Both the position numbers and the translations under genes were made by a program. This document shows, one piece after another, positions 10,685 through 32,144 of a DNA stretch of 41,504 nucleotides; within the stretch, counting starts at the first letter, position 1, and each line of letters starts with the position of its first letter. The DNA comes from Planctomycetes bacterium GWC2_45_44 (GTDB lineage Bacteria > Planctomycetota > Phycisphaerae > Sedimentisphaerales > UBA12454). The DNA lies in assembly GCA_001824555.1 (NCBI GenBank), contig MHXU01000133.1, forward strand, positions 1 through 41,504, read 5' to 3'. Under the pieces are notes generated by a model. That model searched no databases and was not told the origin of the DNA. It worked only from the letters and a program-made list of their open reading frames with translations.

Positions 10685-10930
10685 AGTTTGACATTCATTT
10701 TGTCATTCCCACGCAGGCGGGAATCCAGTTTGTAGGGTGGGCTTTAGCCCACGCGGTTTTTTGTCTACATTCGGCTAAAGGCAATCTCTAAAAGCTTGTC
10801 CCCGCGAAAGCGGGGATGTAAAAATCAGAGCCGCGACAGTAATGGAGCGGTCAAAAACAAAGTTTATTATATTTGATGGTCAATTTTTAGAGATGCCCTA
10901 AAGTATTACTTTAAATCAAAAAAATATTGT

Positions 10931-13565: not shown

Positions 13566-13740
13566 TCTACCCCCTATGTCCTCTTCAAAACTTGCTAAAA
13601 TCGTATCAAAACTCCTCAAAAACAACAAAAAATCTGCGAAAATCTGCGAAATCTGCGTCAAAACTTTCAATTTTTTGAAGAAATTTTACAAAATTTGCAA
13701 TTTACTTGCGCATTTAGCCGAAAATCCGCAAGTCCGCCAC
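13566..13740 (+). repeat. Inverted-repeat copy 1 (about 175 bp), mate at 20333-20507
   Basis: Shares aaaaacaacaaaaaatc..gaaaatctgcgaaatctgcgtcaaaactttcaattttttgaagaaattt with the reverse complement of the mate. Confidence 0.85.
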
Positions 13741-20332: not shown

Positions 20333-20507
20333 AGCGCAAGTTTTTTTCAGCCAAACGCGCAAGTAAATTGAAAATTTTGCCAAATTTCTTCAAAAAATTG
20401 AAAGTTTTGACGCAGATTTCGCAGATTTTCACGGATTTTTTGTTGTTTTTGAGCAATTTTGAGTGGTTTTTGACAAGTTTTGAAAAGAGGGTATAGTGGG
20501 TAGGGTT
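20333..20507 (-). repeat. Inverted-repeat copy 2, mate of 13566-13740
   Basis: Reverse complement matches copy 1 over roughly 175 bp. Confidence 0.85.
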
Positions 20508-22119: not shown

Positions 22120-23007
22120 ATGAAAATATTGATAGCAGTAAGTGTTGTTGTGGGCATGCTGTTGGGTGTGAGTTACGCAAGAGCAGGCACTTGGACCACA
22201 TTTAACTATCCAGGGGCAACCAGCACATATATCTACGACATTGATGGGAGTAATCTTAGCGGGGTCTATATTAGCACGTCTGGCGGCATACGGAACTTTC
22301 TTTATAATAGTACAAGCTGGACAACCATCAACAAGCCAGGGGCGGTTTCGACTATAATAGACGGCATTGATGGAAGTAATCTTGCTGGGTACTACACTGA
22401 CGCTGAAAATTATTATAGCCATGGTTTTCTTTATAATGGAACAAGCTGGGCTACTCTCGATATGCCGGGGTCAAACTACACATATATACGCGGCATTGAC
22501 GGAGGCAATCTTGTTGGGAGTTACAAAGACACTTCTAATAATACCCATGGCTTTCTTTATGATGGAACAGGCTGGACTACCATCGACATGTCAGGGGCGA
22601 GCGCCACAATAGCTTATGGCATCGATGGGAGTAATCTTGTTGGGAGCTATCAAGACGCTTCTTACCATAACCATGGCTTTATATATGATGGGACAAGCTT
22701 GACTGCCCTCAACTATCCTGGGGCAAATGAAACAATAATATATGGCATCAGCGGTAACAATCTTGTTGGTTCATACACTGGCTCTGGTAAAACTCGTGGC
22801 TTTCTTTATGATGGAACAAGCTGGACTGCTCTCAACTATCCCGGGATGAGTGGTACAAAGATATGCGGCATCGATGGGAACAATCTTGTTGGATCTTACA
22901 CTGACGCTTCCGGCAGTATCCACGGTTTTCTCTACACTATCCCCGAACCGGCGACGTTTTTACTTTTAGGCTTGGGCGGATTGGTTTTGAGAAGAAAAAG
23001 AAAATAG
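22120..23007 (+). CDS. PEP-CTERM exported protein with six approximately 42-aa repeats (HAF/propeller-like)
   Basis: Signal peptide MKILIAVSVVVGMLLGVSYARA; repeats HGFLYDGTSWTTIDMPGA..TIIYGIDGSNLVGSYTDAS; C-terminus IPEPATFLLLGLGGLVLRRKRK. Confidence 0.9.
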   Translation: MKILIAVSVVVGMLLGVSYARAGTWTTFNYPGATSTYIYDIDGSNLSGVYISTSGGIRNFLYNSTSWTTINKPGAVSTIIDGIDGSNLAGYYTDAENYYSHGFLYNGTSWATLDMPGSNYTYIRGIDGGNLVGSYKDTSNNTHGFLYDGTGWTTIDMSGASATIAYGIDGSNLVGSYQDASYHNHGFIYDGTSLTALNYPGANETIIYGISGNNLVGSYTGSGKTRGFLYDGTSWTALNYPGMSGTKICGIDGNNLVGSYTDASGSIHGFLYTIPEPATFLLLGLGGLVLRRKRK

Positions 23008-23255: not shown

Positions 23256-23488
23256 CTTGAAATCGCAGATTAAAAATTTGAGAAATATGGATTCCCGCCT
23301 TCCGTCTTCGCTTCGCCGTGACAGGTCGCGGGAATGACAAGAGGACGCGAGAATGACAGAATAATGAACCCCCAGTAGAATTGGGGGCTGAATAAAAACA
23401 GCGTGGGCTTCCTCCTTCGCTAAAGCTACGGAGGACAGGAAAGCCCACCCTACAAAACTGACCCTGCCATACAAGATGGCAGGGCTAA
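23256..23488 (+). repeat. 233-bp direct repeat, copy 1
   Basis: cttgaaatcgcagattaaaaatttgagaaatatggattcccgcc...ccctgccatacaagatggcagggctaa; near-identical to 23550-23782. Confidence 0.95.
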
Positions 23489-23549: not shown

Positions 23550-23782
23550 CTTGAAATCGCAGATTAAAAATTTGAGAAATATGGATTCCCGCCTTCCGTC
23601 TTCGCTTTGTCGTGACAGGTCGCGGGAATGACAAGAGGACGCGAGAATGACAGAATAATGAACCCCCAGTAGAATTGGGGGCTGAATAAAAACAGCGTGG
23701 GCTTCCTCCTTCGCTAAAGCTACGGAGGACAGGAAAGCCCACCCTACAAAACTGACCCTGCCATACAAGATGGCAGGGCTAA
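23550..23782 (+). repeat. 233-bp direct repeat, copy 2
   Basis: Only difference I see from copy 1 is cttcgccgtg versus ctttgtcgtg (2 nt). Confidence 0.95.
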
Positions 23783-30515: not shown

Positions 30516-31622
30516 TTGAAATATAAAATAAAAATAATTCTGTTCGTTGTTTTAGTTTTTGCGGCTGTTTGTGTTGCTGAAAGAATTAAGGATATCGCAG
30601 ATATTGGCGGTGTTCGGGGTAACCCGCTTACCGGCGTTGGTCTTATAACCGGCCTTGCGGGTACGGGCGATGAGACGACGCCTTCGCAAAGAATGCTCGA
30701 AAATATTCTCCGTCAAAGCGGTTTGGTCCTCGACAATATCGACATAAAGGGCGGCAGTATCGCGATTGTTATGGTAACGGCGAATCTTGGTCCGTTTGAC
30801 AGACCTGGTGCAAGGCTTGATATTGACGTTTCCAGCGTCGGCGATGCCGAGAGTTTGCAGGGCGGAATACTGATGCCTACGCCATTGAAAGGTCTTGACG
30901 GACAGGTTTATGCCGTGGCGAACGGCGCGGTAACGCTGGGCGGCTGGGGAGCGGGCGGCAATAACGCTTCAATCAAGAAAAATCATCTTACGGTCGGAAC
31001 TATTCCAAACGGAGCGATTGTGGAGCGCGAGGAAATTTCGGAATTCATCGACAGGCTGGGCGGAAAGAGAAGTTTCAGTTTTGTTTTGCGATATGGCGAT
31101 TTTACAACGGCCGAGAGAATCGGCGCGGTTGTAAATAATAATTTCGCCAACTGCGCGACTGTCGTTGACGCGGGAAATATAAAGGTAAATATACCTGATA
31201 ATATCGCTGAAAACGAAATTCCGAAATTTATCGACCAGCTTACGAGATTAGAAGTTACGGTTGACGTGCCTGCGGTTGTGGTGATTAACGAAAAGACAGG
31301 CACTATCGTGGTCGGCGAAAATGTCGGCATTTCGGCAGTGGCGATATCGCAAGGCAGTCTGGTGGTTAAGGTAAAGGAGACGGCCAATGTATTTCAGCCG
31401 ACGGCATCGTTTTCCGATGCGGGTACGACCCAGAAGGTTGATGAAACATTGTTGAGCGTTAAGGAAGAGCCGGGATACTTAGTTCCGGTTAAGAAAACCG
31501 TAACGGTTGCCGAACTTGCCAAGACACTTAACGCTATCGGGGCAACGCCGACGGATTTGGTGGCGATATTTAACGCTCTCAAGAGAGCGGGCGCTCTGCA
31601 GGCGAAATTGGAAATAATGTAA
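30516..31622 (+). CDS. flgI: Flagellar P-ring protein
   Basis: ERIKDIADIGGVRGNPLTGVGLITGLAGTGDETTPSQRMLENILR ... AVAISQGSLVVKVKE. Confidence 0.95.
   Translation: MKYKIKIILFVVLVFAAVCVAERIKDIADIGGVRGNPLTGVGLITGLAGTGDETTPSQRMLENILRQSGLVLDNIDIKGGSIAIVMVTANLGPFDRPGARLDIDVSSVGDAESLQGGILMPTPLKGLDGQVYAVANGAVTLGGWGAGGNNASIKKNHLTVGTIPNGAIVEREEISEFIDRLGGKRSFSFVLRYGDFTTAERIGAVVNNNFANCATVVDAGNIKVNIPDNIAENEIPKFIDQLTRLEVTVDVPAVVVINEKTGTIVVGENVGISAVAISQGSLVVKVKETANVFQPTASFSDAGTTQKVDETLLSVKEEPGYLVPVKKTVTVAELAKTLNAIGATPTDLVAIFNALKRAGALQAKLEIM
31609..31619 (+). repeat. 11-bp direct repeat (left), candidate target-site duplication
   Basis: TGGAAATAATG, identical copy at 31778-31788. Confidence 0.8.
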
Positions 31623-31777
31623 AATTTTAAATAAACAGCGTGGGCTAAGAGCCCACCCTACAAAACTGGGATTGCCACGCTACGTCCTGCTCCGCAGGAC
31701 TTTGCTCGCAATGACAAATGGCATTTTTAGAGATTGCCTTTAATAAACAGCGCGGGCTAAAGCCCGCCCTACAAAAC
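31620..31777 (+). mobile_element. Small noncoding hairpin-repeat insertion between flgI and flgJ
   Basis: Contains two F1 hairpins (acagcgTGGGCTaagAGCCCAccctacaaaactg and acagcgCGGGCTaaAGCCCGccctacaaaactg) and is bounded by an 11-bp direct repeat. Confidence 0.5.
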
Positions 31778-31788
31778 TGGAAATAATG
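31778..31788 (+). repeat. 11-bp direct repeat (right), candidate target-site duplication
   Basis: TGGAAATAATG. Confidence 0.8.
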
Positions 31789-31799
31789 CAGGCGAGAAA

Positions 31800-32144
31800 A
31801 TGGAAAGCATAGACCTGATTAATAATTTGCAGCCGGTGTCGGCGAAAGTAAGTCTGGAAGTCGGCGGCGCAAATAAGATTGCGCAGCAGAAGACTGAAAA
31901 GTTTTGCAAGGATTTTGAAGCGATATTTATTACCCGACTTCTTGACGAAATGAAAGAGACAATCGGCGACTGGGGCGGCGAGCAGGACGGAGCGGCCAAG
32001 CAGACGCAGGGACTTTTTTGGATGTATCTTGCGCAGGATATGGGTGACAAGGGCGGATTCGGACTTTGGAAACAGATGTATAATCAGCTTGCCGGCGGCG
32101 AATCGGCGTTGGTGCAGAAACAGAAAATAGAGGTCGAAATCTGA
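31800..32144 (+). CDS. flgJ: Flagellar rod-binding (FlgJ N-terminal domain) protein, no muramidase domain
   Basis: KFCKDFEAIFITRLLDEMKETIGDWGGEQDGAAKQTQGLFWMYLAQDMGDKGGFGLWKQMYNQL. Confidence 0.85.
   Translation: MESIDLINNLQPVSAKVSLEVGGANKIAQQKTEKFCKDFEAIFITRLLDEMKETIGDWGGEQDGAAKQTQGLFWMYLAQDMGDKGGFGLWKQMYNQLAGGESALVQKQKIEVEI

Follow-up and report, generated by a model that had tools for sequence, protein, structure and literature searches.

A REP/BIME-type mosaic with an apparent target-site duplication at the flgI stop codon of a Phycisphaerae bacterium

In the genome of Planctomycetes bacterium GWC2_45_44 (Phycisphaerae, 2.93 Mb), the junction of the flagellar gene flgI with the gene at the flgJ position contains 158 bp (31620-31777) that lie between two copies of one 11-mer, TGGAAATAATG, at 31609-31619 and 31778-31788. 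Positions refer to the window, i.e., the whole stretch of 41,504 nucleotides of contig MHXU01000133.1 that was analysed. What was inserted here, did the insertion duplicate its target, and which enzyme could have been responsible? The initial annotation of this DNA, made from the sequence alone, had read the segment as a hairpin element inserted with target duplication, and this reading stands. We consider it likely that this lineage acquired a mosaic of the REP/BIME type (repetitive extragenic palindrome/bacterial interspersed mosaic element) at the flgI-flgJ junction, with duplication of the target, and that a REP-associated tyrosine transposase (RAYT, or TnpA-REP) dispersed the palindromic repeat of the mosaic, here called REP-A. 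This is a real REP/BIME insertion of a kind already known; the occasional target-site duplication (TSD) is unusual, and we infer a mechanism for it below.

The flgI-flgJ junction with and without the insert

The junction could be read in 21 relatives. The sole same-genus genome, a metagenome-assembled Phycisphaerae genome of 78% completeness, stands outside this comparison, as its contig breaks off a few codons short of the flgI stop. The insert is missing from all 21 junctions, and in none of them does a second copy of the motif GRRATRATG occur within 300 nt. Since the relatives have neither the insert nor a second motif copy, the 158-bp segment is, judged from this comparison, a lineage-specific insertion with a TSD that arrived together with it. 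An empty site with a single motif had been predicted beforehand, and element-free relatives carrying both 11-mers, which would have spoken against the insertion, were not encountered among the 21. Within the window the 11-mer occurs only at these two sites, both exact, even if one mismatch is allowed, so that the repeat described in the initial annotation is exact and unique there. The features of the junction are as follows.

30516-31622, plus strand: flgI, flagellar P-ring protein (open reading frame, ORF; Pfam FlgI PF02119, 361 bits), ending in ...KLEIM-TAA, with C-terminus and stop position as in the 21 relatives
31609-31619: left TSD copy, TGGAAATAATG, present as a single copy in relatives
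31778-31788: right TSD copy, TGGAAATAATG, preceded by C (the CTGG form, seen in several relatives) and followed by CAG
31800-32144, plus strand: gene at the flgJ position, 114 aa (ORF; same place in relatives)

In all 21 relatives FlgI ends in LEIM, LEMM, LVIM or LKIM, with the stop right after that ATG. The suggestion that the insertion had moved the flgI stop, the ancestral frame reading on as LEIMQARKWKA, is therefore rejected: the end codon of FlgI is identical in the relatives, and the protein is unaltered. The distance to the next gene is different. This gene starts between 4 nt before and 36 nt after the FlgI stop in 20 relatives and 118 nt after it in one; here the gap is 177 nt.

Several relatives read CTGGAAATAATG-TAGGA at the junction. 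In our genome the left copy reads TTGGAAATAATG-TAA and the right copy CTGGAAATAATG-CAGG, with CAG at the position where relatives carry the stop codon. The simplest history would start from one ancestral CTGGAAATAATG-TAGG that was duplicated over 11 to 14 bp. The left copy would then have acquired a synonymous C>T and the right copy, in which a stop had become unnecessary, a T>C; its ATG-CAG is most easily derived from an ancestral ATG-TAG by this single change. The left copy may extend as far as 31621 when the TA of the ancestral stop codon is counted, and the duplication may be up to 13-14 bp long if the two later point changes are allowed for. The element was inserted exactly at a stop codon and left the protein intact, and the spare stop in the right-hand copy seems to have degenerated afterwards.

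The gene at 31800-32144 probably encodes a rod-binding-type FlgJ, to judge from its position and its similarity to the next ORF in relatives; a Pfam search of its product gave no match. A Shine-Dalgarno-like AGGCGAG is retained just 5' of its ATG, and a FlgN-like gene and flgK follow downstream.

The insert and its repeat family

A repeat search by self-BLAST that was blind to the site returned a cluster at 31623-31781, within a few bases of the element first noticed. The two hairpins that the initial annotation had placed in the insert were recovered and belong to a genome-wide repeat family, REP-A. The insert has the following parts.

31620-31777: composite insert, a BIME-like mosaic of A-rich lead, REP-A, element C and REP-A (self-BLAST cluster; missing from 21 relatives)
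31638-31661, minus strand: REP-A copy 1, GTAG-tagged palindrome GTAGGGTGGGCTCTTAGCCCACGC, exact match to the 83-copy genome pattern
31668-31738: element C, dispersed palindromic repeat GGGATTGCC...CTCGCAATGACA...GAGATTGCC, with 86-88% identical copies elsewhere in the genome
31750-31772, minus strand: REP-A copy 2, variant stem GTAGGGCGGGCTTTAGCCCGCGC in the orientation of copy 1 (hairpin read in the window)

On the minus strand the REP-A hairpin reads GTAG-GGTGGGCT-n-AGCCCACGC, a GC-rich palindrome with GTAG left unpaired at one of its feet; GTAG at this place defines the GTAG REPs (PMC3733652). The two copies stand head-to-tail around element C, and some copies of element C elsewhere in the genome are likewise joined to REP-A. 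No terminal inverted repeats were found at 31620-31777, an Rfam search gave no score near the gathering cut-off, and phage records gave no match. As RNA the insert folds somewhat better than its shuffles (z -2.24). On the operon strand there is no U-run behind its hairpins, and these are therefore expected to cause little termination of the flgI-flgJ transcript.

The REP-A core, loops included, has 83 exact copies in the genome. The stretches that were read cover about one sixth of the genome, including nearly all exact copies, and contain 89 distinct copies if near variants are counted; individual copies whose position was read are intergenic. A slightly different pattern occurs 67 times here, once in the sole same-genus genome, 1-26 times in five members of genus g2 and not at all in most other genomes of the order. 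By these counts, the amplification of REP-A in this lineage is recent. In related genomes, mostly of g2, the repeat has no conserved A-rich flank.

Besides the 23-24 nt form, REP-A has a long-loop form with a 53-nt core (e.g., window 23401-23453), whose loop is itself palindromic (CTTTCCTGTCCTCCGTAGC...). A 233-bp tandem duplication (23256-23488 and 23550-23782, 99% identical, 294-bp period) contains this form. Other repeats of the window are a 144-bp inverted pair (13581-13724 and 20344-20487, 88% complementary) with further copies elsewhere in the genome, and five tandem repeats of ~126 bp (22237-22908) within an ORF that has a PEP-CTERM motif.

Target duplications and the mobilisation of REP-A

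If the duplication belongs to the insertion process, it should recur at other copies of the family. Significance was assessed by swapping flanks, with 300 permutations for 79 REP-containing clusters and 10 permutations for 89 single copies. The flgI-flgJ cluster has a duplication score of 12, and three clusters reach at least this score versus a permuted mean of 0.1. At a score of at least 9, five REP-A clusters were observed versus 0.72 expected, and none of the 300 permutations reached five. Among the single copies, seven of the 89 score at least 10 (1.7 expected; maximum of 3 in the permutations). Overall, duplications of 9-13 bp are present at about five of the 89 copies (~6%), so that the anticipated duplications of similar length at other copies do exist, though most copies have none. 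Four or five copies apart from the one at flgI-flgJ have such a duplication; the clean examples are:

L118: CTAATTTTTGCA, at a bare REP-A, 21 bp long if 3 mismatches are allowed
L117: CTAACGGCCGA, within another dispersed repeat
L009: CTGCCGTTARTAT, at a bare REP-A
L125: ATAAAAAkCCTG, at a bare REP-A, 12 bp with one mismatch

Note that L117 is missing from the cluster test owing to different cluster edges, that L123 is kept separate as its duplication sits in a dispersed simple repeat, and that low-complexity and tandem-repeat matches (L081, L096, L120 and others) are left out. Other repeat clusters also exceed the permutations, partly through tandem repeats or repeat-internal structure that produce edge duplications; these were not counted as TSDs. 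In about 0.4 Mb of contigs of genome G001, the sites of L009 and L020 are without the repeat, and intergenic divergence obscures how many bases were duplicated.

These results bear on the simplest alternative, that the 11-mers form a repeat that is fortuitous or ancestral and unrelated to the insertion. An 11-mer is short, and most REP-A copies lack such a repeat; yet no relative has the second copy, both 11-mers abut a repeat cluster that was defined independently, and the permutation tests point the same way. We reject this alternative on the relatives and the permutations and regard it as hardly credible.

A further regularity is seen at the A-rich flank on the GTAG side. Among the 48 copies with exactly four A's after CTAC, 38 continue with CT (CTAC-AAAA-CT), compared to a background of 7.4% after AAAA. 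The left-hand duplicates of L118, L117 and L009 contain CT as well, as does the orthologous, repeat-free L020 site of G001; at these four sites it therefore belongs to the target. TnpA-REP cleaves at C|T in vitro (PMC8266576), and the CT preference at REP-A ends is consistent with RAYT cleavage at CT.

A candidate enzyme is at hand. The full-length RAYT of genome G011 (C88; L232, protein P0001) scores 182 bits with NCBIfam REP_Tyr_transpos (cut-off 80) and matches the solved E. coli TnpA-REP (PDB 4er8) with an E value of 2e-33. A REP-A begins 9-10 nt past its stop, and another lies 0.37 kb upstream, beyond a small ORF. Our genome has a homologue of it (L095, G000 C78:2394-2726), 70% identical over 105 aa, in which both the HLH motif and the tyrosine region YNPVKH are present, and here again a REP-A starts a few bases past the stop. 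A cognate RAYT gene with adjacent REPs, the mark of REPtrons, is thus present in both genomes, the copy in our genome being 5'-truncated, and REP-A has the character of a REPtron-type repeat. From this adjacency, the RAYT would be the enzyme that spread REP-A. Two other Y1 transposases found with Pfam (C162 and C47) were considered as mobilisers and set aside: other palindromes, with GGCTAAA or its complement at the end, flank both, no REP-A is nearby, and they are not obvious partners. Furthermore, palindromes flanking two Y1 transposase genes (L061, L062) are tagged GGCTAAA/TTTAGCC instead of GTAG (e.g., CCCCCAGTAAAACTGGGGGCTAAA); these are possibly other REP families with enzymes of their own.

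The preferred course of events would be as follows. REP-A was spread by the RAYT, whose gene would survive here as the 5'-truncated copy beside a REP-A; its GTAG-side end would join the target at CT, where TnpA-REP enzymes cleave in vitro; and the duplication would arise in the less frequent events in which the other strand is nicked or gapped some 11-13 nt off and then filled in. The staggered second nick is the weak step, as larger duplications are not known from RAYT and IS200-type enzymes. We know of no description of a staggered target cut leaving an 11-13 bp duplication for HUH/Y1 single-strand enzymes, and it is doubtful that RAYT-driven mobilisation of GTAG REPs regularly staggers the cut at CT in this manner.

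Several observations weigh against mobilisation by a RAYT with target duplication. Besides the many copies of our genome that have no flanking duplication, none of 34 REP-A copies in related genomes (mostly g2) has a TSD. The RAYT of our genome lacks ~50 N-terminal residues inside a contig; it is probably dead, and this truncation makes present activity unlikely. No REP-A (exact motif) lies near 47 of the 48 Y1-transposase loci checked in the family. Seven of the 38 CT-ended copies run on into another repeat module (GGATTCCCGC) and so do not count as independent target sites. In vitro, cleavage is confined to the GTAG strand (PMC8266576), whereas CT is read here on the opposite strand. RAYT and IS200/IS605 enzymes are said to make no larger target duplications (PMC2817692); most REP-A copies conform to this, the 11 bp at flgI-flgJ and a few other copies do not.

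In one alternative, a conventional DDE transposase would have moved the insert as part of, or like, a miniature inverted-repeat transposable element (MITE); the duplication would be an ordinary TSD and the REPs passengers. The genome does have a family of MITE-like elements (L100:1021-1138, L075:120-278) that are bounded by the inverted ends GTAATACTTTAGCC...GGCTAAAGTATTAC, contain REP-A and show 7-10 bp duplications. The flgI-flgJ insert, however, is without these ends, and L118, L009 and L125 carry their duplications at bare REP-A copies without inverted ends. This route is improbable. As a separate observation, partial ends of the MITE-like family adjoin other REP-A copies, including window 10729-10793.

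Host repair could also have captured a hairpin fragment in a staggered break, with a duplication, a small loss or neither as the result. Variable left ends and duplications at only ~6% of copies would fit, as would L020, where the orthologous site is without insert and our genome may have lost ~10 nt. Such capture would leave unexplained why one family was amplified, why the GTAG-side end prefers CT and why REP-A adjoins RAYT genes, and we give it a similarly small chance. Spread of REP-A by a RAYT, with a target cut that is sometimes staggered, remains the reading we prefer.

REP-A among known systems

REP-A resembles the GTAG REPs and BIMEs (Di Nocera et al. 2013, PMC3733652) in that a GC-rich palindrome of 7-8 bp with a short loop carries GTAG at its foot, in its many intergenic copies and its mosaics with other repeats, and in its occurrence in the PVC (Planctomycetes-Verrucomicrobia-Chlamydiae) superphylum, where GTAG REPs are found. 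REP ends beside or within stop codons, as at flgI, have been described for them as well (PMC3733652). It differs from them in its A-rich flanks ending at CT and in the 9-13 bp duplications at a few copies.

With RAYT/TnpA-REP REPtrons (PMC2817692, PMC8266576; 4er8), REP-A shares its adjacency to a RAYT gene, seen both in G011 and in our genome, and the CT where the element is joined, which matches the in vitro cleavage site; in contrast to them, its own RAYT is 5'-truncated, CT is opposite the GTAG strand, and there are target duplications, which are not described in PMC2817692 and PMC8266576. As in REPINs (Bertels and Rainey 2011, PMC3116915), two REP sequences flank a spacer as one unit, whereas REPIN pairs are inverted and form one long hairpin; the two REP-A copies here have the same orientation.

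Like bacterial MITEs, the insert is short, non-coding and flanked by a TSD; unlike them, it has no terminal inverted repeats. REP repeats are not known to duplicate their target site. Insertions such as this one, in which the empty site can be read and a duplication is present, constrain the mechanism: they give the end of the element and the dinucleotide to which it is joined, and indicate that the target is sometimes cut in a staggered manner.
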